From Arenicola marina (taxonomy: Eukaryota; Annelida; Polychaeta; Arenicolidae): a stretch of DNA of 64,000 nt. Every line of letters starts with the position of its first letter. Positions within the stretch are counted from its first letter, which is position 1. Where the stretch lies: NCBI GenBank assembly GCA_964019135.1, contig OZ025255.1:6944001-7008000 (forward strand). Reading direction: 5' to 3'. A program made the position numbers and the translations under genes. The notes under the pieces were generated by a model. That model did not search any database. It saw only the letters and a program-made list of their open reading frames with translations, and had not been told where the DNA came from. Below, piece after piece: positions 1 to 48,521 of the stretch.

Positions 1-635
1 CACCTTGTATTGTTTCCCTGGTTATAAATAGGTATTTCATTAACAAATTGAGATATATTTTGATAAAATAGTCACTTAACCAGAGCTTAGTTTCTACAAT
101 GGATATCCCAAAGGCAATCAGTGACTGATGTTCTTACTTCTCTTGTGGATGTCTTATGTAGTGAGTAAACAGCGAGTTTACTCATGTTTATAGCAGCCTT
201 GAGGAACTGTATATCTATACCTGGAGAATGGAAAAACCATCAGAACATAAGCATGCATATTGCCCGTAACCGTGAGAAGGCGTAAGCCAAAAACAGAGTT
301 GGCCAGATTTAGGCCAATACATCTCACAATATAGGACCGGTCACAATGTGCGGCTGTTAAAGCCATACAATCAGGACAGCTGGTGCGCGTTCACGAAAGT
401 ATTCCGTGATAACACGAAGCGTCTGACTTCGTTCGTCACCTGAAGTTTATTTTATCGGCGAAAGTTGTTGGATCCGATGTGTGTTTGATGTTGGTTTACT
501 GGTTTTGTCTTGACAAAGCTTGATTCGTTCTAAAAGACTTGGCACCGTGGGCTTGAAACGATTAGATGGTAGAAAGACATAGGCAAGTCATAACTGGTGA
601 CACATTTACATCGATTACATGACATTAATACCCAC
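1..635. other. Region 3' of METTL5 exon 3, no gene seen
   Basis: This is METTL5 intron or downstream DNA on the minus strand. I searched it for the rest of the methyltransferase domain and did not find a convincing next exon, so the remaining coding exons should lie left of the window. The one short open frame has no recognisable motif. Confidence 0.4.
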
Positions 636-2262
<1,627 letters not shown>

Positions 2263-2269
2263 AACACAA

Positions 2270-2412
2270 ATTTTCGGGTCCAGGTAGTCTGCCTCGCCTC
2301 TCCCCTTTTCGGGTCCAGGTAGTCTGCCTCGCCTCTCCCCTTTTCGGGTCCAGGTAGTCTGCCTCGCCTCTCCCCTTTTCGGGTCCAGGTAGTCTGCCTC
2401 GCCTCTCCCCTT
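2270..2412. repeat. 36-bp minisatellite, about 4 copies
   Basis: Four nearly identical units, each containing TTTTCGGGTCCAGGTAGTCT followed by a pyrimidine-rich half. Because 36 is a multiple of three, open frames of 60-73 codons cross it. They are by-products and not genes. Confidence 0.95.
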
Positions 2413-2450
2413 TTTTTGAGAGAGATGAAGTCATTTCTCAATGCGAATTA

Positions 2451-3171
2451 CCGTAAACTGCCTATTTGAAGCTGCGGCTTATATTAGGAAGTTGAAGGTT
2501 CCACTTTCCAGGGTTTGAGTCGCGAGTCAGTGTGCGGCTTCAAGTGAGCGTGGCGAGACAAGCAGGGTGTGCAGGGGTAATATCACTGGTGTTGCCAAAA
2601 TAATTTATTGCATCATAACGCCATACAAGTTAACAAGTTGGGAGATAATTCAAGTTGGAAGCTGCATATCGTAAGATTTTCCCAGGCATTGTGTTACTGT
2701 GGCAATCAAGACTGACAAGGAGCTACTTACGGTTGTGTTATTTATTACTACTGCCACGTGACTTCACCCACAACTATTGTAGACCAATGATCAGAGGTCA
2801 GGTTTTAGGGAGTTTAAACTGATACGGCAGCCGTCTGCCTCGCACCAAATGCAATAAGTTAATTGTACCTGACAGATACTGGGTAGGTACAACAGTGATT
2901 CATAAACATGCAGTAAGAGCCAGGAGAGCCAGCCACTGGTGTGGCACTTGATAAGAGCTATGATCAGAGAGGAAGAGTTGAATGTTGTTAGTGGTCATGA
3001 CTGCTTGTATAAACAATGAATTGGTTTCATTGGCGGGATGGGATTAAGCAGGGATACAGAGGGGGTGGGGTGGGGGGGGGGGGTCGAAAGACCAAAGTCT
3101 GGGTGCGGCTTATAATATGTAGTTTTCCGAGGCTTCTAATATGTATGCGGCTTTAAATAGGCAGTTTACAG
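2451..3171. mobile_element. Non-autonomous DNA transposon with TA duplication (721 bp)
   Basis: The ends are inverted repeats: CCGTAAACTGCCTATTTGAA at the left and, read from the right end on the other strand, CTGTAAACTGCCTATTTAAA. The similarity continues into GCGGCTTATA-like sequence. A TA dinucleotide flanks each side (2449-2450 and 3172-3173), as expected for Tc1/mariner/pogo-type insertion. The interior has a G-run near 3061-3082 and no transposase, so it is a MITE-like derivative. Assignment to the pogo/Tigger branch is a guess from the end sequence. Confidence 0.75.
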
Positions 3172-3200
3172 TAGATGCCATCTTAGATGATAAACCCACC

Positions 3201-3385
3201 AATTTTTTTGTGCACCTCCTTTTTATGGTTATACATGTTAAATTGCTGCCAGGGCACAACATTTCAAGTGAACCCTCCACCACCCCAGCCTACACATGAT
3301 TTTCTGCCAATTTTTGTGTGCACCTCCTTTTTACAGTTAAATTGCTGCCAGGGCATAACATTTCAAGTAAACCCTCTACCACCCC
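3201..3385. repeat. Direct duplication of about 80 bp
   Basis: Two diverged copies, 3201-3286 and 3309-3385. Both contain GTGCACCTCCTTTTTA, then TTAAATTGCTGCCAGGGCA, then an ACATTTCAAGT...CCACCCC end. Two poly-G runs follow at about 3430-3490. The plus-strand open frame across them (3187-3681) has no recognisable motif. Confidence 0.8.
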
Positions 3386-4137
3386 TACTACAAGTGTATG
3401 GTCTGTCTGTGACACAACACTCTCGATCCTGGGGGGGGGGGGGGGGGGTACTTAATACATTGCTGGGTTTGGGGAAGGGGGGGGGGGGCTTTTATTGCTT
3501 AAGGTTTATAGATCTAGTGGCCTGTCAGATTTTACTACCCCTTACCATTTCTGACTGTTTCCTATATTTCAGTCTACTGTCTTTTAATATTGCTTGCCTG
3601 TCTGCCACAGCACTAATTTTCCATTACTTGCATGAGATGTTACTCATTTATAAGTACAATGAAGGAACAGACCAACTATAGCACATACATGCTCAAGCCT
3701 GCCTCACACTTTTTCAATCATGGTGGGGGGTTGTAAAGTCCCAGTTCGCCAAATTCAGCAGCTCACAAAACATCTACCAAAAGCAAAACAAACCTACTGC
3801 AGTATTTTTGAAATGGCGGTGAGTGGCACAAGGTTTGTTTTGGTGGATGTTTTGTGGGCTGATGAATTCGCCAATAGCACTTGGGGCCTTCAATCTTTGT
3901 GGCCGCCACATATATGTATCCTGGACATTCATAAATGTATCCTGGACATGAATATATATAGATCTATGTGACATATATGTGGCGTCTTTATCACATTTTT
4001 GTGAAATCCAAAAATCTTTGTCCCCCCCCCCCCCCACCCCTGCTTTGGGGAATCCTGCTCGGGAATCCATGGCCCTCCGGTCCGCCCTGGGGCCGGTGGG
4101 GCATGTTACAGGGCTAGGCTAAGGTTAGGCTAGCAGT

Positions 4138-4317
4138 AGCCTGAAAAGACGTTACTCAGCTTACGGCAAGTCGTCTCATTGCCAACTGTCTTACGACAGT
4201 AACGTCTTGTTTTCAGGCTAGGCTAGCAGTAGCCTGAATGTTCAGACGTTACAGTCTTGACACTTGTTCTTGTGACTAGAACAAGTGTCAAGACTGTAAC
4301 GTCTGAACATTCAGGCT
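4138..4317. repeat. Two tandem fold-back hairpins sharing the same ends
   Basis: Hairpin 2 is a perfect inverted repeat: arm 4231-4270, 7-base loop 4271-4277 (TGTGACT), arm 4278-4317, 40 bp each. Hairpin 1 (4138-4222) has shorter arms with a 3-base indel and a longer, differently folded middle. Both begin AGCCTGAA and end TTCAGGCT, both carry GACGTTAC near the ends, and they are separated by copies of GGCTAGCAG. This looks like a duplicated palindromic mobile or satellite unit. Confidence 0.85.
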
Positions 4318-4330
4318 AGGCTAGCAGCCG

Positions 4331-4784
4331 ATGTCGGCCCAAGTATGCGAGCGATAATAGGGATGTGGTCGAAAAGTACACACAGTGAGGATATAATTCA
4401 AAAAGCTTGACATGAAAAAACCCACCAGAAATAGATCTATATTCTAACATTCCCCACTGCTTACTGTGACACACTGCAGCAGCTGGAGCAGCTGTACATC
4501 TACATATACTATGATCTAGCCATAGACTGTCATGTAGGTATGTTTACTTCCGGCGCAGTCCAAGGTAGCTGACAAGTAATCAGGCAATGTCTTTTAGCAG
4601 CTCTTTTGCCTGGCGGAGCACGATCGACCGCCGCGTACAATTTGTTGCGGGCATATCCACTAAATAATTAACACTAATTTGGAAATAGCAGCACACTGTA
4701 AATAGTGGAAAATATTGATAAACAAAGGATAATTATTATGCATCGATACTTACGGGTTGTCCCCACGTATTTCAGGAGAACCGA
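4331..4784. other. Spacer, no gene seen
   Basis: Ordinary unique-looking sequence between the fold-backs and the GC-rich array. I see no exon, RNA gene or repeat end here. Confidence 0.35.
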
Positions 4785-5735
4785 CGTCCGGGACGTGGCC
4801 TGGGGGATGTCGGCGACCCGTCCGGCACGTGGGCCCCCTGGGCCTGGGGAACGGCGACCTCCGGGACGTGGGCCCCCTGGGCCTGCGGAACGGCGATCTC
4901 CGGGGCGTGGGCCCCCTGGGCCTGGAGAACGGCGACCTCCGGCCGGGACGTGGGCCCCCTGGGCCTGGGGAACGGCGACCTCCGGGGCGTGGGCCCCCTG
5001 GGCCTAGGGAACGGCGACCTCCGGGACGTGGGCCCCCTGGGCCTGGGGAACGGCGATCTCCGGGGCGTGGGCCCCCTGGGCCTGGAGAACGGCGACCTCC
5101 GGCCGGGACGTGGGCCCCCTGGGCCTGGGGAACGGCGACCTCCGGGGCGTGGGCCCCCTGGGCCTGGGGAGCGGCAACCTCCGGGACGTGGGGCCCCTGG
5201 GCCTGGGGAACGGCGACCCGTCCGGGACGTGGGCCCCCTGGGCCTGGGGAACGGCGACCTCCGGGACGTGGGCCCCCTGGGCCTGGGGAGCGGCAACCTC
5301 CGGGGTGTGGGCCCCCTGGGCCTGGAGAACGGCGACCTCCGGCCGGGACGTGGGCCCCCTGGGCCTGGGGAACGGCGACCTCCGGGACGTGGGCCCCCTG
5401 GGCCTGGGGAACGGCGATCTCCGGGGCGTGGGCCCCCTGGGCCTGTGAACGGCGACCTCCGGGGCGTGGGCCCCCTGGGCCTGGGGAACGGCGATCTCCG
5501 GGACGTGGGCCCCCTGGGCCTGGGGAACGGCGATCTCCGGGGCGTGGGCCCCCTGGGCCTGGGGAACGGCGACCTCCGGGACGTGGGCCCCCTGGGCCTG
5601 GGGAACGGCGACCTCCGGGGCGTGGGCCCCCTGGGCCTGGGGAACGGCGACCTCCGGCCGGGACGTGGGCCCCCTGGGCCTGGAGAACGGCGACCTCCGG
5701 GGCGTGGGCCCCCTGGGCCTGGGGAACGCCCCTGC
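4785..5735. repeat. GC-rich 39-bp minisatellite, about 24 copies
   Basis: The unit contains GGACGTGGGCCCCCTGGGCC followed by TGGGGAACGGCGACCTCCG. A G/C swap at GGACGTG/GGGCGTG and an extra CCGG-type insertion create subtypes. Each copy holds a GGGCCC palindrome. The unit length is 13 codons and lacks stops, so all frames stay open on both strands (up to 459 codons) and give collagen-like [13 protein letters not shown] text. Poly-C tracts follow to about 5868. Confidence 0.97.
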
Positions 5736-28445: not shown

Positions 28446-28881
28446 ATAACACACTCGTGTCCATTTTGTTCAACCATGGTAAATCCGGTAGGTCATACCC
28501 ATACAACACACAATAGGGAAGTGGGCCTGTCCTTGATAAGGAATACGCAAACAGCGGGCACCAATTTAAGGATTGGCACAAGAAAAGAAAGAAACGACGC
28601 AATAAATACTACGTGGTTCAAGCCGTAACAAAATCTAACAAGGAATACCATACAGTGTAGAATCGAGCAAAGGAATGTCACAGCATTGGTAGACTCAGGC
28701 GCATCAGTCTTGTGTATAAGCCAAACATTGTATTCAGTGTTTTTATGGTTGTCATTTTTATTAATATGTTAAGATTACAGGAGTAATCTACTTGGTGTAC
28801 CAGGCATATATCACAGGGAGAAAAACTGTAAACAGTGACGTGACTGTAAAGAGGGGTTCGTGGCTAGTGCGGCGAGGCGTC

Positions 28882-29152
28882 TGTTACGTTGCAAAATGTC
28901 CGCCAGGCAAATATCGTTGTATTATGTCCGCCCAAAAACCAATTCGTCGTTGCAAAATGTCCGCCCGGAAAATATCGTTGCATTATGTCCGCCCAAAACT
29001 CAATTCGTCGTTGCAAAATGTCCGCCCGGAAAATATCGTTGCATTATGTCCGCCCAAAACTCAATTCGTCGTTGCAAAATGTCCGCCGGGCAAATATCGT
29101 TGCATTATGTCCGCCCAAAACTCAATTCGTCGTTGCATTATGTCCGCCCACT
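28882..29152 (+). repeat. 61-bp array, 4.5 copies, left member of an inverted pair
   Basis: Units start at 28887, 28948, 29009 and 29070. Each has CGTTGCAAAATGTCCGCC and later CGTTGCATTATGTCCGCCC, so each unit is itself a diverged dimer. TGTTACG precedes the first unit. The same array in opposite orientation lies at 33593-33800. Confidence 0.93.
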
Positions 29153-29159
29153 GCATGAT

Positions 29160-30230
29160 GTCTTTGTCGCATGATCAGCTCTATATACCTATCATTTCTT
29201 ACTATATCATGAGCCGCCCATTTAGCTCAGTATCTTAAACAGTTGGTGCCACGCCAAAACAACTTTAGCTCATATGAATCTTCTGTGTTCCACGCTTATA
29301 TTATCGAGCTATAACGCCCCAATTAGTAAAAGGAAATACTTTTTCCACTTGTTTTCGCACATGTCGAGTTAATGTCTGGGAGCGAGGAAAGTGACGTCAA
29401 AGGGGAATACAAACGCATGTGCTTTTACATTGAGACTCTTTGCCGATTGGCTTGAACTCAACGAAAAGCACTCAACCATGAGAACAATACACGCCCTCGA
29501 CGACAGATGCCTATACGCACTGCATCAAAGCTCACCTGTCAATCTTGTGACATCATTGGGCAATTTCTAAATAACGCTCAGATGCAATGCTCCTAGAATT
29601 AAACCCGCTGGATCTCACTTTTGCTACTTTGACGAACGCGTTTATAGTGATATAGTGGAATAAAAGCTGAAAACTCCCATTAAAACAAATTCTTATTTGT
29701 TTGTCTTCCTTAAACTAAGTTAACTATGAGCTAAGCAAAATCGTGGCACGAACACTTTAAGTAGCGCGCTTGACATGAGCTCCGCGCTGGAACTGAGAGC
29801 CTAACGGTACGCGAGTCGCGAGCCCTTGGTAAGGGGGGGGGGGGTAAGCCCTACCCGGGTGACTCTCAGCATAATGGCGGCATTGCGGCGACACCCCCCT
29901 CCAATTTCTCTTTCTCTCTCTCCATCCCCGTGTCCCCACGTACCCCGCTCCCCACCTCCTTGTTCTAAAAATTTCAACATTTGATGACTTGCAGTTTTCA
30001 TCATTAAGTTATAATAGAGACTTCTGTTGGTTTGCTATTATTAAATTGTAATTTAATAATAGCAATAGTGAAGGAGGGACAGATGTGAACTTCAGCATAA
30101 AATATGCCGAGACCCGGTGGCGGGGCGGGGGGGGGGGGGGGGTACATACAAGTGTAATATAACCTTATTTAAGTTGCCCCATACTTGTTCCATTATGATT
30201 ATGCGATGATTTTTGTTTCACTTTTTTTTT
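29160..30230. other. Spacer, no gene recognised
   Basis: It contains poly-G runs near 29830 and 30130. A minus-strand frame near 29801-30004 has no recognisable motif. Confidence 0.35.
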
Positions 30231-30393
30231 TTCTTTTTTTTTGTGGCTCCTATGCTAGCGACCTTCGTGGTCTTAATAGGAGTCTCCAGAGTAAGAATTG
30301 GTTAATTTATCCCGTTGTTTTGTATTTGACGATTGCATGCATTCGATCTTGCTCAAATAAATGACATTGAATTGAATTGAATTGAATTGAATA
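30230..30393 (+). mobile_element. LINE 3' UTR end with ATTGA tail
   Basis: TTTTTTTTTTGTGGCTCCTA, then CTCAAATAAATGACATTGAA, ends in a tandem TTGAATTGAATTGAATTGAA tail. A short-repeat tail right after an AATAAA-like signal is the usual 3' end of several LINE clades. No coding part remains. Confidence 0.55.
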
Positions 30394-30446
30394 GGTTGGG
30401 GGTAGGGGGTCTGCGGTAAAGCCCCCCCCCCCCCTTTCACCTCCTA

Positions 30447-30625
30447 AATCCGCTCGGTCGGGGCGTTTTACCACCAAAATCCGCTCTGTCGGGGCGTTTC
30501 ACTACAAAATCCGCTCGGTCGGGGCGTTTTACCACCAAAATCCGCTCGATCGGGGCGTTTTACCACCAACATCCGCTCTGTCGGGGCGCTTTACCGCTAA
30601 AGTCAGCTCGTACGGGGTATTTTTT
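30447..30625. repeat. About 31-bp minisatellite, 5-6 copies
   Basis: Units read AAATCCGCTCGGTCGGGGCG followed by TTTTACCACCA. The last copy is diverged. Confidence 0.93.
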
Positions 30626-30722
30626 CCCGGCAACCCGCTCCATGAACGTACATTTTCAGAGCCCCCCCCTCCCCCCCCCCCCCGGTCGCAAGTTCCAATG
30701 GATCCTCCCCCCACCCTTTTTT

Positions 30723-30745
30723 TCAAATTCCTGGATCCGCCCCTG
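30723..30745. mobile_element. hAT-like transposon end
   Basis: CAAATTCCTGGATCCGCCCC TG after a long C-run (30661-30683). It is the same end as at 5872 and 10782. The partner end was not found. Confidence 0.4.
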
Positions 30746-30749
30746 CAGC

Positions 30750-31570
30750 ATGTTACTTTCTTGTCAGTATCTGAAGTAAATACTCTCCAATTGTGCCTAC
30801 CGTTAGCAAAGATTATCCATTTCATGCTCACGAATATCACTACGTGTAAGCGTCGCTTAGTGTATGGATCGATCTATTCAGCCGGCTCGATCAAAATAGG
30901 CCATCGTCAATTTCTCGATTCACCAATACTTATTGACTCTGTTATGGCACCTACCCAAACAATCGACATAGACAATCATATATTGCCTTGTAGGCAATCA
31001 CACGATGACTGGACCGGGCCAAGAAGCCCCTCGATGCCATGAATAATGGTTGAAACATGCCCAAGACTTAGTGTCGGGGTCGAGATATCACGATACATTG
31101 TCATAGTTTACAGATGGCATGTTTTACTAAATCTGACTTTTGCATACGCTTTATGCTTGGAATGTGGGCCTAGTTCATTGCTCGATTACCCCTTAGTCGA
31201 AGGCAAGCGGCGACCCGCATAGATGTTGCCTTTGCACCCCTGCCTCCACTCCTCCCAATTGTCTACATTCCAAGTAAATGGAAGACGGGTGGGGGAAGGG
31301 CGACTCGGAGACAAACGGGGCACCCGTTTTATCATCTAATTACATTACCCTGAACCGCCATTGGGTCCCACCCGGGGATCCCACGTGTGCACTCATCCAA
31401 TCTACGTATCTTCCTACACACACGAAATGTAATAGAATGTGCTTTCTGCGATTATATATTTGGGTTGCGATGAAAATTCCTGTTCACGTTGACGTTGATA
31501 CGAAAGCTTGTTAGGGCCCTTCAGATTGTTTTTTTATTAATCAACATTTTTTCTGCTTGTCAACCAGCAG
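30750..31570. other. Spacer, no gene recognised
   Basis: The plus-strand frames at 30698-31042 and 31278-31514 overlap low-complexity sequence and show no motif I recognise. Confidence 0.35.
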
Positions 31571-31705
31571 TTCAATATTCAAACCCGGAGTAGATGCTTT
31601 TAACTGTAATAAATGATTTAAACCTGAATAAATTATTAAAACTGGAAATTAATTATTCAAACCAGGAATAAGTTATTCAAACCAGGAGTAAATGATTCAA
31701 ACTCC
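31570..31705. repeat. About 22-bp degenerate repeat, 6 copies
   Basis: Units resemble ATTCAAACCAGGAATAAGTT with drift in both directions. Confidence 0.75.
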
Positions 31706-31709
31706 GGAT

Positions 31710-32270
31710 ATGTGGTGTCAAATCTGGATTTGTCGGGTCAATCTGGATCCCGAAATCAAAAAAAGGCACACGTTTTTGGTTATTAAAGCAACCTCTATTG
31801 TCCCATTTACATTTTGCATTTCATGGTATTATAGGTTCCCACGAGGTCCATGTGATCTTACGAGTGCTAGACAGGGGGTTTTCTCATTCCATTTCGGCAT
31901 GTCAAATGGAGACAACGCTTAGCAAGGCTCGTAATAAACGTAAGAAATTCTTATTCTTGACAAATATCTCCTTGAAAATGTGCAATGCGCACGTTGTAGA
32001 TTAAGATAATCCACAAGGAAGGCAACATATGCCGTGGAATTAAACCTATAATCATGTTACAAGCCTTTTGATAGTGACAGGGCAATACAATTGGAAAGGT
32101 AATTCATGTATTGTGACACCTTGATTGGATGAAGGGCCATATTTATCACGGTCCATGCATCGGGAAGAACAAATGGACGCATGTCACAACGTGGAATCGC
32201 TTTTCGGCGAACGGCTTACCATAACTACCATGATGACGTAACGGGAAGCATATAGGAGTCAACCACGCCG
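31710..32270. other. Spacer, no gene recognised
   Basis: Two overlapping plus-strand frames (31692-31922 and 31798-32004) have no recognisable motif. Nothing else is visible. Confidence 0.3.
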
Positions 32271-33185
32271 TATTGACCTGTAAGATCCTGATTTAATCCA
32301 TCGTATCAGTATTTGACTATGATCATCTCCACTAGACCTCTAGGATCCCAATTGGATTGAACCATCAGATCTAGATTGACCCCTCAGATCCAGATTTGAC
32401 CTCTCGGATCCAGATTTGACCTTCAGATCCAGATTGAACCCGCAGATCCAGATTTGACCTCTCAGATCCAGATTTTACCCATCAGATCCAGATTGAACCC
32501 GCAGATCCAGATTTGACATCTCAGATCCAGAGTTGACCCTTCAGATATAGATGTGACCTCTTAAGTCCAGATTTTGACCCTTCAGATCCAGATGTGACCC
32601 TTCAGATCCGGATTGACCCATCAGATTTAGATTGACCCCTCAGATCGAGATTGACCCCTCAGATCGAGATTGACCCCTCAGATCGAGATTGACCCCTAAG
32701 GTCCAGATTTGACGCCCCAGATCCAGATGTGACCTCTGAAATCCAAATTTGACCCCTCAGATCCAGGTTTGACCCCACATATCCGGATTTGACCTATGAG
32801 ATCCAGATTGACCCTTTAGATCCAGATTTGACCTCTTAGGTCCATATTATACCCCTCAGATCCAAATTGACCCTTCAGATCCAGCTTTGACCTCTTAGGT
32901 CCATTTTATACCCCCTTAGATCCAAATTGACCCTTCGGATCCAGATTTGACCTCTTAAATCCAGATTGAACTATCAAATCCCGATTGACCCCTTAGATCC
33001 GGATTGACCTTTCAGATCCAGATTTGACCTCTTAAATCCAGATTGAACCATCAAATCCAGATTGACCTATCAGATCCAGATTGACCTTTCAGATCCAGAT
33101 TGACTCTTTATATCGAGATTTGACCCTCAGACCCAGATGTGACCCCTCAGATCCAGGTTTGACCCCTTGTATCCAGATTGACCGT
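32270..33185. repeat. About 19-20-bp degenerate minisatellite, about 45 copies
   Basis: Units are variants of CAGATCCAGATTTGACCCCT. Divergence is much higher than in the other large arrays, so this one is old or no longer homogenised. Confidence 0.93.
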
Positions 33186-33415
33186 TCCTATCCCGGAGAC
33201 ACCTGCCCAGATCGACACAACCCACCGTCACACCCCTCTCTTTCCTCCCCGTCAATGCTCACACAAGCAGGTTTGAGCAGTCCCCACAGTAACCTTTTCT
33301 CAGAATTATTGGCCCCATCTGCCAATGATTAAGGACAGAATAAAAATATTGTGACCTTGAGCTTTGACCTACATACCCCGCTAATGAACTTGACCGAGCC
33401 ATGTCGGTGACACGC

Positions 33416-33442
33416 AGACGCACACACACACACACACACACC
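33416..33442. repeat. (CA)n microsatellite
   Basis: About 13 CA dinucleotides. Confidence 0.9.
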
Positions 33443-33592
33443 TGTAGACAAACAGACAAATTGAGATATGTCGGAAACATCCGTCATAACAACTCAGACC
33501 GACATTTAAAATTTAGATAATAACAGAACACACCGAGATTAGACTTTGAAATCTTACATTTTCGTTTTGAAAAAACGGAACCAACCGACATA

Positions 33593-33800
33593 CCGGCGGA
33601 CATTTTGCAACGACGAATTGAGTTTTGGGCGGACATAATGCCACGATATTTGCCGGGCGGACATTTTGCAACGACGAATTGAGTTTTGGGCGGACATAAT
33701 GCAACGATATTTGCCGGGCGGACATTTTGCAACGACGAATTGAGTTTTGGGCGGACATAATGCAACGATATTTGCCTGGCGGACATTTTGCAACGTAACA
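33593..33800 (-). repeat. 61-bp array, about 3.4 copies, right member of an inverted pair
   Basis: This is the reverse complement of the 28882-29152 array. It contains GGCGGACATTTTGCAACGAC and GGCGGACATAATGCAACG, and ends in CGTAACA exactly as the other begins with TGTTACG. Confidence 0.93.
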
Positions 33801-34880
33801 GCGTGGAGCCGGCTGGGCAGCGGCCGGTGGGACATGGGGGTCACGTGGAAACATTTCCGCCACAACCCAGTGGGCAGTGGTGTTGAACACGTATGTTGGG
33901 TGAACTGGCCACGAAGGTAACGCGTCTATGCGCGTCTGGCTCCGCTTGACCGGCACCCGCCATATAAACCCCTGGGCTGGAGGCTTGAGAAACAATCGAC
34001 AGAGGAACGCAGCTTGCGGACTGACCCACGCCACACCCCGGGTCTGCTGGAGCCTGGACACTGGGATAGGACGCACTCAGCGAGCGCTGCCACGTTTTCC
34101 CCATATGTTTATGTCGCAATAAATGGAGATTGCTGGCAAAAGCCCTGCGTCATCTGTTCATCTGTATAACCCCCAGGGCCGGTTATAACTACGCCCGGAG
34201 CCACAGCAAGCGAGAACGCGGGGACAGAACGCGAGATCGGCACTAACATGCCACCATATGCCATAGTTGGTTGATACGATTAACGACATTTGTAGCCCAT
34301 TGAAGCATTGGCGAGGACACCATCAAACTGAAAACAATACCACCTTGGCGGATGTATCTTGGAGGAAACTTAAGAAAAGTTGTGGTCACTCACTATGGAT
34401 TACAGACGCGTGGGTTCATCGTTGAAATCACCATGCACAAAGGCCTCCAAACCTTGCATTGTATTTGAAGTTCTATATTTGGTTTTTGCATTCCTTTAAT
34501 GGACACAATCTTTGCTTCTTTTGGAAATTTTGGCCCAATTACAGGTTCAAAACATCGTAAAACGCTGGTCCACCATTCAACGTCCACCGCATTTTAGCGA
34601 CACTTCGTCGTGCGATGCAGAGCCATGTGCGGTCGATAACCGTGTATCGAAAAACACAATCAATGAACAAAATCATCATTTGGATCAGTCCAGCCATTCG
34701 GAAACTTTTTAGCGCATGCGAGTAGATATAAATAAATACAGTGACATCTCTCTGCCCGACCACCTCTCAAACCCGATCGATTTTGTGTAAGTCTGGGCTT
34801 AGAATAGAGAAGCTTTACTGTACATCTGTTAAGTATTTGTTTCCGGAGCACTTTAAAATCGGATTTGGAAATTGTTACAT
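33801..34880. other. Unassigned region with a TATAAA / AATAAA pair
   Basis: CATATAAACCCC near 33961 is followed about 155 bases later by GCAATAAATGG. A TATA box and a polyadenylation signal this close recall a long terminal repeat, but I find no matching second copy, no clean ends and no primer site that I can name. A conventional small transcription unit or chance are alternatives. Confidence 0.25.
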
Positions 34881-38717: not shown

Positions 38718-39492
38718 CATCTCGCACTCGACACAATGCCATATGCATGTCTTATCTTATCTTATCTTAAGTGCGTAATCGGGTAATGATTGTCCCGCTC
38801 TGTCATAGCTCGACGCGAACATATGCTTCATATTGTAAATTGAACAGAGCTCTTTGAATAGCCTGGATACAAGAGCGCTGCCATTGTCGGATACGATATC
38901 CCGGGGCAACCGTGAACACATATGATGCTCCAGCCGTAGTGGAGGAGGTTGGCCTGGCAAATGCGTAGCCACTGTACTAGTCGGTAACCACCACGATGTA
39001 TTTGTTGCCTGCGTCAGAGACTTTGATTGGTCCCATCCAATCGATGCATACCTTTTCGAAAGGCGCGTGTGTCAGCTCGTGAGGCTGTAAAATTAATTCG
39101 CGTTCGACTTTTTGCGTCGAGGCTTTAGACCGGTTACAGACTTCGCATGATGCGACATAGTTTGTAATGTCGGTGGGCATGGTTTTCCAAAATAACCGGT
39201 CACGAAGGACGCTAAGCATTTTACTGGTTCCGACATGACCAGCAAAGCTTGACTCGTGATAGAGAGCGAGAATCTGGGATTTTAGACCCTGGGGTATCAC
39301 CAGTTGGGCCTTCGCTGCTTCAGCTTTGTTGTGGGAAGTGAAAAGGTCATAAAGTACATTATCTATGACATAGTAGTCTCATTCCCTGAGGACAAGAGCT
39401 CGAGCCTCGTCGTCATTGGCAGGTAAGGTGCCAAACTTCAGAAAGTCATACAGTTGTTTGCATTCTGGATCGGCTTGCGGTGCCTGTTTAAC

Positions 39493-41483
39493 TATGGCAA
39501 GCCAAAGTGGAATTTAATAGAGTATTTGCACATATGTCCAAATGAATTACACATATGTGTAATTCAATTGCACATATGTCCAAATAAATTCAACATATCT
39601 TCAATTCAATTAAAGATATCTTTAAAGACCCCTATTTAGACATATGTGCAAATGACTTAGACATATGTCCAAATGAATTGCACATATGTCCAATTCAATT
39701 GTACAGATGTCCAATTCAATTGTACAAATGTCGAAATCATTTAGACATATGTGCAATTCATTTCGACATATGTCCAAATAATTTGGACATATGTCCAAAT
39801 GAATTGCACATATGTACAATTCAATTGTACATATGTCCAATTCATTTGCACATATGTCAAAATGAATTGGACATATGTACAATTCCAAATTAATGTTATC
39901 ATTATTTCGAATTAATGATATCATTAACTTAAATGAATTAATGTTGTCATTAATTCGAATTAGAAGTGGAGGTGGAGGAGATGGAGGTGGTGGAGGTGGA
40001 GGTGGGTGTGGAGGTGAAGGAGGCGGAGGTGTATGGCAAGCCAAAGTTGAATTTAATAGAGCATTTGTACATATGTTCAAATATTTGCACATATGTCCAA
40101 ATGAATTACACATATGTGTAATTCAATTGCACATATGTTCAAATGAATTTAACATATCTTCAATTCAATTAAAGATATCTTTAAAGACCCCTATTTAGAC
40201 ATATGTGCAAATAATTTAGACATATGTCCAAAAGAATTGCACATATGTCCAATTCATTTGTACATATGTCCAATTCATTTGCACATATGTCCAAATCATT
40301 TAGACATATGTCCAAATCATTTGGACATATGTCCAATTCATTTATGTCCAAATAAATTGCACATATGTACAATTCAATTGTACATATGTCCAATTCATTT
40401 GCACATATGTCCAAATCATTTAGACATATGTCCAAATCATTTGGACATATGTCCAATTCATTTATGTCCAAATAAATTGCACATATGTACAATTCAATTG
40501 TACATATGTCCAATTCATTTGCATGTCCAAATGAATTGGACATATGTACAATTCCAAATTAATGTTATCATGAATTCGAATTAATGATATCATTAATTCA
40601 AATGAATTAATGTTATCGTTAATTCGAATTCGAAGTGGAGGTGGAGGAGTTGGAGGTGCTGGAGATGGGGGTGGGGGTGGGNNNNNNNNNNNNNNNNNNN
40701 NNNNNNNNNNNNNNNNNNNNNNNNNNNNNNNNNNNNNNNNNNNNNNNNNNNNNNNNNNNNNNNNNNNNNNNNNNNNNNNNNNNNNNNNNNNNNNNNNNNN
40801 NNNNNNNNNNNNNNNNNNNNNNNNNNNNNNNNNNNNNNNNNNNNNNNNNNNNNNNNNNNNNNNNNNNNNNNNNNNNNNNNNTGTACAATTGAATTCAACA
40901 TATGTGCAATTGAATTCAACATATGTGAAATTGAATTCAACATATGTGCAATTGAATTCAACATATGTGCAATTGAATTCAACATATGTGCAATTGAATT
41001 AAACATATGTGCAAATTATTTGGAGATATGTGCAATTGAATATGCAATTGAATTAACATATGTGCAAATTATTTGGAGATATGTGCAATTGAATTCAACA
41101 TATGTGAAATTGAATTCAACATATTTAAATTAGACTTTAACATATGTGAAATTGAATTCAACATATGTGCAATTGAATTCAACATATGTGCAAATTATTT
41201 GGACATATGTGCAAATGATTTGGACATATGTACAATTGAATTAAACATATGTACAATTGCATTAAACATTTGTGCAATTCAATTGCACATATGTCCAAAT
41301 CGGAAGGATTTGTACATATGTTTAATTGAATTAAAGATATGTCCAAATCAATTTTACATATGTTAAATTCAATTATACATATGTCTAATTCAATTTCACA
41401 TCTTTAATTCAATTGCACATATATGTGCAAATATTTGAACATATGTGCAAATACTCTATTAAATTCCACTTTGGCTTGCCATA
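39493..41483. mobile_element. Satellite-filled transposon with TATGGCAAGCC inverted ends
   Basis: The ends are perfect 45-bp inverted repeats starting TATGGCAAGCCAAAGTGGAA. TTTAAC flanks both sides (39487-39492 and 41484-41489). The interior is an AT-rich array of CACATATGTCCAAATGAATT-type units of about 20-22 bp, GA-rich GGAGGTGGAGG tracts and a second, internal copy of the terminal repeat at 40032. The unit (end, array, GA tract) is therefore at least duplicated in tandem. A 200-base run of N interrupts it. No transposase is visible. An isolated right end of the same family occurs at 48521. Confidence 0.85.
40682..40881. other. Assembly gap (200 N)
   Basis: A run of exactly 200 N inside the satellite core. 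It is probably a placeholder, so the true length of the transposon is unknown. Confidence 0.99.
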
Positions 41484-41561
41484 TTTAACGGCAGCGGGAG
41501 TAAGAGCAATATCTACTAGAATTTCTGGCGCTGCCGCCGTCGTTCGCTGCTGGTATTTTGC

Positions 41562-48419: not shown

Positions 48420-48521
48420 TTTTAAATAATAGGACATATGTCCAACTCATGTAAAGACATGTATACAACAATTTTACGGTTAATTTCTTGAAGATATGAA
48501 CATTCATTTTGGCTTGCCATA
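48420..48521. mobile_element. Right end of a TATGGCAAGCC element (fragment)
   Basis: The sequence has GGACATATGTCCAACTCATG and ends CATTTTGGCTTGCCATA, matching the terminal repeat of the 39493-41483 element. No left end is visible, so the left boundary is a guess. Confidence 0.6.

Follow-up and report, generated by a model that had tools for sequence, protein, structure and literature searches.

A transposon family with tandem-repeat arms and 6-bp target-site duplications in Arenicola marina, provisionally of IS3EU/GingerRoot type, and its possible link to a satellite

Within the 64,000 nucleotides of Arenicola marina DNA analysed here (the window; C8:6944001-7008000), the segment 39493-41483 is bounded by inverted ends and filled with tandem repeats. 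This raises the questions of whether the segment is a transposon, what kind of enzyme would move it, and whether its tandem array is passive cargo, a working part of the ends or material from which a satellite could arise. The window was therefore compared with the whole genome, which comprised 867 Mb in 762 contigs.

Ends and parts of the window element

A preliminary description of the window had claimed perfect 45-bp inverted ends and a 6-bp flanking duplication, and both are present. Inverted-repeat alignment places the left terminal inverted repeat, which begins with TATGGCAAGCC, at 39493-39537 (plus strand) and the right one at 41439-41483 (minus strand). The element thus reads TATGGCAAGCC...GGCTTGCCATA, and the inverted identity of its two ends extends over exactly 45 bp. 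Directly outside the ends stands the word TTTAAC, at 39487-39492 on the left and at 41484-41489 on the right. Both occurrences are evident from the letters and from the comparison of copies, and the left one also from a paralogous site on C12 (see below).

The last bases of the left inverted repeat form the first ACATATGT unit of a 21-bp array (39526-39882), which makes up the outer left arm (39524-39885, plus strand, delimited by repeat finding). Its unit is ACATATGT NN AAWTNAWTT NN, both blocks of which are palindromic. Further in on the same strand, repeat finding revealed an AT-rich segment of 22-bp repeats at the inner edge of the arm (39888-39962), followed by a first purine tract of the GGAGGT type (39966-40031), which is also apparent from the letters. 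A second left arm (40032-40551, plus strand), recognised by end search and by alignment to the outer arm, carries a copy of the end at its start; its own 21-bp array occupies 40065-40551, and the arm also contains an internal duplication of 120 bp. A second AT-rich segment of 22-bp repeats (40557-40630) and a second purine tract (40634-40681), identified on the plus strand in the same ways as the first ones, come next. This tract runs into an assembly gap of 200 N within the core (40682-40881), so that 1991 bp is not a measured length of the element. The right arm, again a 21-bp array found by repeat finding, lies on the minus strand at 40882-41450. Both the 21-bp arrays and the GGAGGT tracts of the tandem-repeat core that had been described are accordingly in place. 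No Pfam match was found in the two arm frames of the window that were tested, and no Rfam match in the window or in loci L031, L032 and L033. On the minus strand at 38977-39378, an open reading frame about 115 bp beyond the left end of the element encodes an integrase zinc-binding fragment (Pfam Integrase_H2C2, E 3.1e-19).

Allowing up to three mismatches, the 18-bp end sequence occurs four times in the window compared to 0.02 expected occurrences. Two of these matches are the exact ends, one is the internal copy at 40032 (one mismatch) and one is a relative at 48504 (two mismatches). This relative, a diverged end at 48504-48521 on the minus strand (TATGGCAAGCCAAAATGA, with AAGAAATTAACCGTA further in), resembles the end of L008/L036 (AAGAAGTTAACCGTA) and may represent a further branch of these ends.

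The internal copy at 40032 had been described as an end. It is that, but it is also more, since a whole second left arm follows: 40032-40681 repeats 39493-40031 with 481 of 514 aligned bases identical (93.6%). The second arm begins directly after the purine tract and has no visible right end of its own. Judged from this alignment, the stretch is probably a tandem duplication of the left arm that was joined at the purine tract. Alternatively, a second element could have inserted into the purine tract of the first, with its right end hidden in the gap, the true length of which is not fixed by the 200 N. The full end copy at its start would agree with such an insertion. We nevertheless consider nesting possible but rather unlikely, as the stretch repeats the plan of the outer arm at the identity given above, closes again with a purine tract and shows no second right end.

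Copies of the family and their target-site duplications

The end is not confined to this locus. When the genome was searched for it in both orientations, as the preliminary description had suggested, the 18-bp end was found 1318 times in forward and 414 times in reverse orientation with at most one mismatch, compared to a single match for the reversed control. The forward excess is probably due to a satellite array on C3, in which 9.9 kb of sequence read contained 156 matches of the 18-mer with up to four mismatches. A 65-bp version of the end (up to three mismatches) gave 127 matches, 58 forward and 69 reverse, of which 30 were exact, and none for the reversed control; 97 of 100 ends among these matches start with TA. 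The element family is dispersed across the genome.

To characterise the insertions, we compared 34 two-ended copies, namely the window copy, 12 loci containing both ends and 21 plus/minus pairs among the matches listed, a selection that favours young copies and leaves out an unpaired end at C8:10613029. The flanking hexamers, as recorded for each copy, form a perfect 6-bp target duplication in 20 of the 34 copies and agree in at least five of six positions in 31. A perfect duplication of 5 or 8 bp was seen in none of the 34, whereas one copy (L038) has a perfect duplication of 7 bp and two (L110/L111 and L116/L117) have no duplication. Since three C1 copies share their flanks, as do two C19 copies, the independent loci number 31, with 19 perfect 6-bp duplications and 28 of at least five matching positions. 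Cross-paired flanks, used as a control, agreed in all six positions in 2 of 1116 pairings and in at least five in 10 of 1116; both complete agreements come from the duplicated C19 locus. The 20 duplicated words varied widely (TTTAAC, TGTGGT, CACCTC, GCGGTG and others). At L116/L117 (C294:6047-8458), one of the copies without a duplication, another TATGGCAAGC sequence lies one base past the right end, and it is possible that two elements stand side by side there.

A query for the empty site was built by joining both window flanks through one TTTAAC. Besides the two window flanks themselves, it found one uninterrupted place, the paralogous site C12:39381754-39381898, which matches this query across 145 of 145 bp with 90% identity (alignment only). 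The 34 copies and this uninterrupted site bear out the proposal of a transposon with these ends and 6-bp duplications, and it is one with no recognised transposase. That the structure arose by chance or as an assembly artefact, as the 200-N gap in its core might suggest, is hardly conceivable in view of the number of copies, their duplications and the C12 site.

The copies range from 365 to 6564 bp in length, with a median of about 1800 bp (the value for the window copy includes the gap). Towards the short end of this range, the 636-bp copy at C7:40921235 consists almost entirely of arm sequence; it has 26 ACATATGT sites, and GGAGGT is absent. In the longest copy (L053, 6564 bp), 35 ACATATGT sites are accompanied by 285 GGAGGT words, and the purine tract occupies locus positions 633-5170. 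Between copies, the purine core ranges from absent to about 4.5 kb in size, and the contents of the two copies just compared indicate that their difference in length comes mainly from the core.

Superfamily assignment and the search for an autonomous partner

As described in the literature, TA..TA ends are a constant feature of complete IS3EU families and 6-bp duplications are the usual one; GingerRoot is similar, and IS3EU lacks an H2C2 zinc finger (PMC10045372). The window ends carry TA..TA termini, and the copies have 6-bp target duplications, perfect or with at most one difference in all but three of the 34 and complemented by the C12 site. Together with the presence of IS481-like transposases in the same genome, these features make membership in IS3EU/GingerRoot likely; the family differs in that its arms consist of a 21-bp array and in that IS481-like queries matched nothing in the 15 full copies. 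With no transposase relative detected there and no partner found in the IS481-like searches, the filing is provisional. That the family is a non-autonomous cut-and-paste transposon of the IS3EU/GingerRoot type, with the roles of arms and core proposed below, is the reading we favour and regard as fairly probable.

Other groups were compared as well. Helitrons and Helentrons are not known to make a target duplication, in contrast to the 6-bp duplications of this family. Polintons bring their own integrase and polymerase genes; their 6-bp duplication is matched by the family, whose copies measure 365-6564 bp, and IS481-like queries gave no match in 15 of these copies. Dada is a target-specific group. 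The same transposon could be moved by another superfamily with duplications of 6-7 bp, such as Dada or an undescribed group, which would be in line with the single perfect 7-bp duplication and with the IS481-like searches, in which no partner was found. However, the duplicated hexamers vary from copy to copy, which sits poorly with the target specificity of Dada, and TA..TA ends combined with duplications that are mostly 6 bp exactly agree with the description of IS3EU/GingerRoot (PMC10045372), so that we think this alternative improbable. Ginger1 is characterised by a 4-bp CCGG/CCGT duplication, TGTNR ends and an H2C2 zinc finger (PMC2836005), and the family has neither this duplication nor such ends.

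Another candidate considered was a foldback element like Galileo and Tetris, whether P-like or of unknown superfamily. Tandem repeats in the ends are common to Galileo, Tetris and the present family, and Tetris additionally shares the variable non-coding middle and the link to satellite arrays (PMC4079207, PMC3688188). In contrast, Tetris has duplications of 8-10 bp, repeats of 220 bp and inverted ends of up to 1.7 kb (PMC4079207), compared to 6 bp, 21 bp and a perfect 45 bp here, and the longest match between the arms of the window element is 77% over 248 bp. Neither 8-10 bp duplications nor very long inverted ends were observed, and a foldback element is very unlikely.

IS481-like transposases are present in the genome. 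A genome search with the IS481 family model yielded 68 matches, which are the 68 that were scored of 1789 first-look candidates; none was above the curated cut-off, and many resemble retroelement integrases, as judged by inspecting L056 and L058. A further genome search, with pieces of two IS481-like proteins as queries, gave 25 and 78 matches. In the best match, L055, which consists of two separate pieces, OTU was above the cut-off and rve and HTH_21 were below it; in L072, rve was above the cut-off. A multi-copy IS481-like group (L068-L074) has open frames of up to 680 aa from stop to stop, and one of its copies aligns with the second piece of L055 over 448 aa. Pfam H2C2 had no match in the tested pieces of L055 or of the multi-copy group. 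L055, L073 and L074 were noted as IS481-like transposase genes, and the L055 element carries a 30-bp tandem array that resembles the window array at 30435-30617.

The preliminary description had suggested looking for a longer copy with a transposase or a Rep/helicase gene. No such copy was encountered in searches with IS481-like protein pieces, which had no match in 15 two-ended copies and recovered the positive control L073. Of the copies read, the two of greatest length, 6.6 and 4.8 kb, contained only more low-complexity repeat, as judged by eye and with a repeat finder. Of 81 IS481-like protein matches, three have one of the 225 listed ends within 20 kb, and all three are weak (E ~4e-4). 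Two of these, C1:43803424 and C1:43727198, are 17.8 and 14.7 kb away from a single-ended GGGATTTA repeat in an apparently duplicated stretch, and the third, C3:60380748, is 15.5 kb away from a listed end. Around the IS481-like matches L061-L072, none of the 12 loci contained TATGGCAAGCC within one mismatch; weak words with two mismatches occur inside three of them.

The GGGATTTA ends were tried as ends of an autonomous element and rejected, the 24-mer being internal to another repeat in the six copies read. Three of the 53 exact copies of TATGGCAAGCCGAAGTGGGATTTA and three A-variant copies are alike on both sides of the 24-mer, which places it inside another repeat there. Inspected by eye, none of the 53 exact copies had an opposite-strand partner within 10 kb among the matches listed. 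The surrounding sequence, seen at L031, L032, L033 and L120-L122, is an interspersed repeat of about 0.5 kb that carries TATGGCAAGCCRAAGTGGGATTTA internally, with the 53 exact copies representing its G variant. It matches the transposon end at 23 of 24 bases in the A variant and at 22 of 24 in the G variant.

Arm repeats, purine core and the C3 satellite

Unit sites, defined as sites within one mismatch of ACATATGT, were collected from 14 elements. This revealed 395 sites, with a successive spacing of 21 bp in 266 cases and of 20 bp in 45. The 21-bp spacing is found in 11 of the 14 elements, which carry 13-61 sites apiece, and is lacking in L037, L047 and L048, where no more than 6-10 sites occur. 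Exact ACATATGT occurred 300 times compared to 0.1 times in 20 base shuffles. The information at the ACATATGT positions is 1.5-1.95 bits, partly by construction as the sites were chosen by this word. The AAWT/AWTT blocks, which were not selected for, reach 1.6-1.8 bits at fixed positions and about 0.8 at W, compared to 0.09-0.6 bits at the four NN positions and 0.28 at the central N. Between in-register left arms (11 ends), the departure from the consensus was 0.043 in the core and 0.068 in the spacer, a difference without statistical significance (492 of 5000 permutations). Strong contrasts obtained elsewhere (0 of 5000) were set aside: the first comparison had mixed arms and orientations, and the 28 ends, of 39, that lack the left-arm marker belong to a mixture of subfamilies. 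The contrast from unit to unit would reflect constraint on a long-lived source lineage, and the lack of one between copies would reflect neutral decay after insertion. Beside the palindrome, positions -1/+8 are anti-complementary (z -4.5), and positions -2/+9 (z 4.0) and -5/+12 (z 8.3) are complementary, all z values being inflated by the relatedness of the units. Selection for hairpins in the 21-bp units was considered and is unsupported, since the signs of this covariation are mixed.

Genome-wide, the two-core pattern of the unit was found at 1340 sites and in the reversed control at none; the pattern equals its own complement, so that forward and reverse counts are identical. The first 50 of these sites (C1 up to 40.5 Mb) include four long runs, each of which coincides with a listed element end, and the remaining seven places consist of one or two units each. 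The window element, L053 and L054 have the array in both arms. The idea that the element carries a tandem array is hence supported, but the array looks like a part of the arms rather than cargo that was spread, as far as the first 50 of 1340 sites indicate. The contrary reading, that a host satellite was captured as cargo and has no part in transposition, could draw on a published model of tandem-repeat capture by small transposons (PMC12628747), on the non-significant core/spacer contrast between copies and on the three of 14 elements with few units. It appears doubtful to us because the 45-bp inverted end already includes the first unit, the array occupies both arms in the three elements named and its long runs, among the first 50 sites, sit in elements. 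We infer instead that the arm repeats are multiplied putative transposase sites.

The C3 satellite spans 66 kb (C3:783133-849321), with every listed place on the plus strand, and is continuous in the 9.4 kb read. Locus L035 comprises 155.6 copies of its 60-bp unit, GGGGAAGGGGAA-TATGGCAAGCCAAAGTGGACTTTAATGG-CGTGGGAAGGCGGAGGGGGC. The 28-bp middle of the unit is identical to the start of the end at L002, and the remainder is purine-rich; the element to which this end belongs, L037, is among the three in which 21-bp units are scarce. In the satellite unit, purine DNA meets TATGGCAAGCC at a junction of the same kind as that at 40031/40032. This likeness may point to a shared origin by recombination at purine tracts, or alternatively to convergence.

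Under the favoured IS3EU/GingerRoot-type reading, a transposase made elsewhere would cut at TATGGCAAGCC, and the arm palindromes would act as extra binding sites that help it to find and pair the ends. One palindrome every 21 bp corresponds to two helix turns, so that the sites would lie on one face. The Galileo transposase has been described to bind repeats inside its long inverted ends (PMC3688188). The purine core would have no function of its own and could grow or shrink by slippage or recombination. Recombination at the purine tract may have joined the second left arm onto the window copy, and a similar junction of purine DNA and element end, repeated many times, may have given rise to the 60-bp C3 satellite. 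It may be speculated further that the arms are helically phased arrays of palindromic transposase sites and that the purine core is a recombination hot spot which joins tracts to ends and turns the cutting site into a satellite monomer. We regard this more specific combination as distinctly doubtful. If it were true, the 66-kb C3 array would consist of many potential transposon tips in one orientation, and there would be a direct line from transposon end to satellite, of which the window copy would represent a similar first step.

Tetris, pearl and the Xenopus MITEs are precedents for such a link. In Drosophila virilis, a satellite derives from the tandem repeats in the ends of Tetris (PMC4079207); unlike there, the satellite unit here comprises the tip and purine DNA rather than an arm repeat. 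Pearl-type elements of bivalves, to which the preliminary description had pointed, are non-autonomous class II elements tied to satellites, and the likeness to them is a general one that was drawn from published table entries (PMC9659126). In the Xenopus elements Xstir and miDNA4, the tandem repeat of a small transposon likewise forms satellite arrays; compared by description, miDNA4 is listed as derived from Tc1/mariner, and Xstir stands without a superfamily in the table (PMC9659126, PMC12628747). Two oyster satellites have been labelled IS3EU (PMC8268682). A literature search for the letters of the end and of the unit gave no transposon paper among the matches listed, as judged by title and start of abstract. 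As far as published descriptions and literature allow a judgement, the repeat-armed family is new and its kind is known, which adds a repeat-armed family with IS3EU-type hallmarks. One genome contains, side by side, copies without a purine core, copies with long cores and a copy with a second arm at the tract, and it also has a long satellite built on a similar junction of purine DNA and end. Provided that these connections are real, the route from transposon to satellite is open to stepwise testing.

The window contains further repeats. A second transposon-like element at 28881-33801 is bounded by 209-bp inverted ends with 97% identity. A 61-bp tandem repeat (CGTTGCAAAATGTCCGCC...) lies within these ends and a 31-bp array further in; a close relative of the element is apparently inserted in the IS481-like element at L073. 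Much of 42323-64000 consists of tandem arrays with units of about 14-77 bp, the last of which, with a 49-bp unit, runs off the end of the window.
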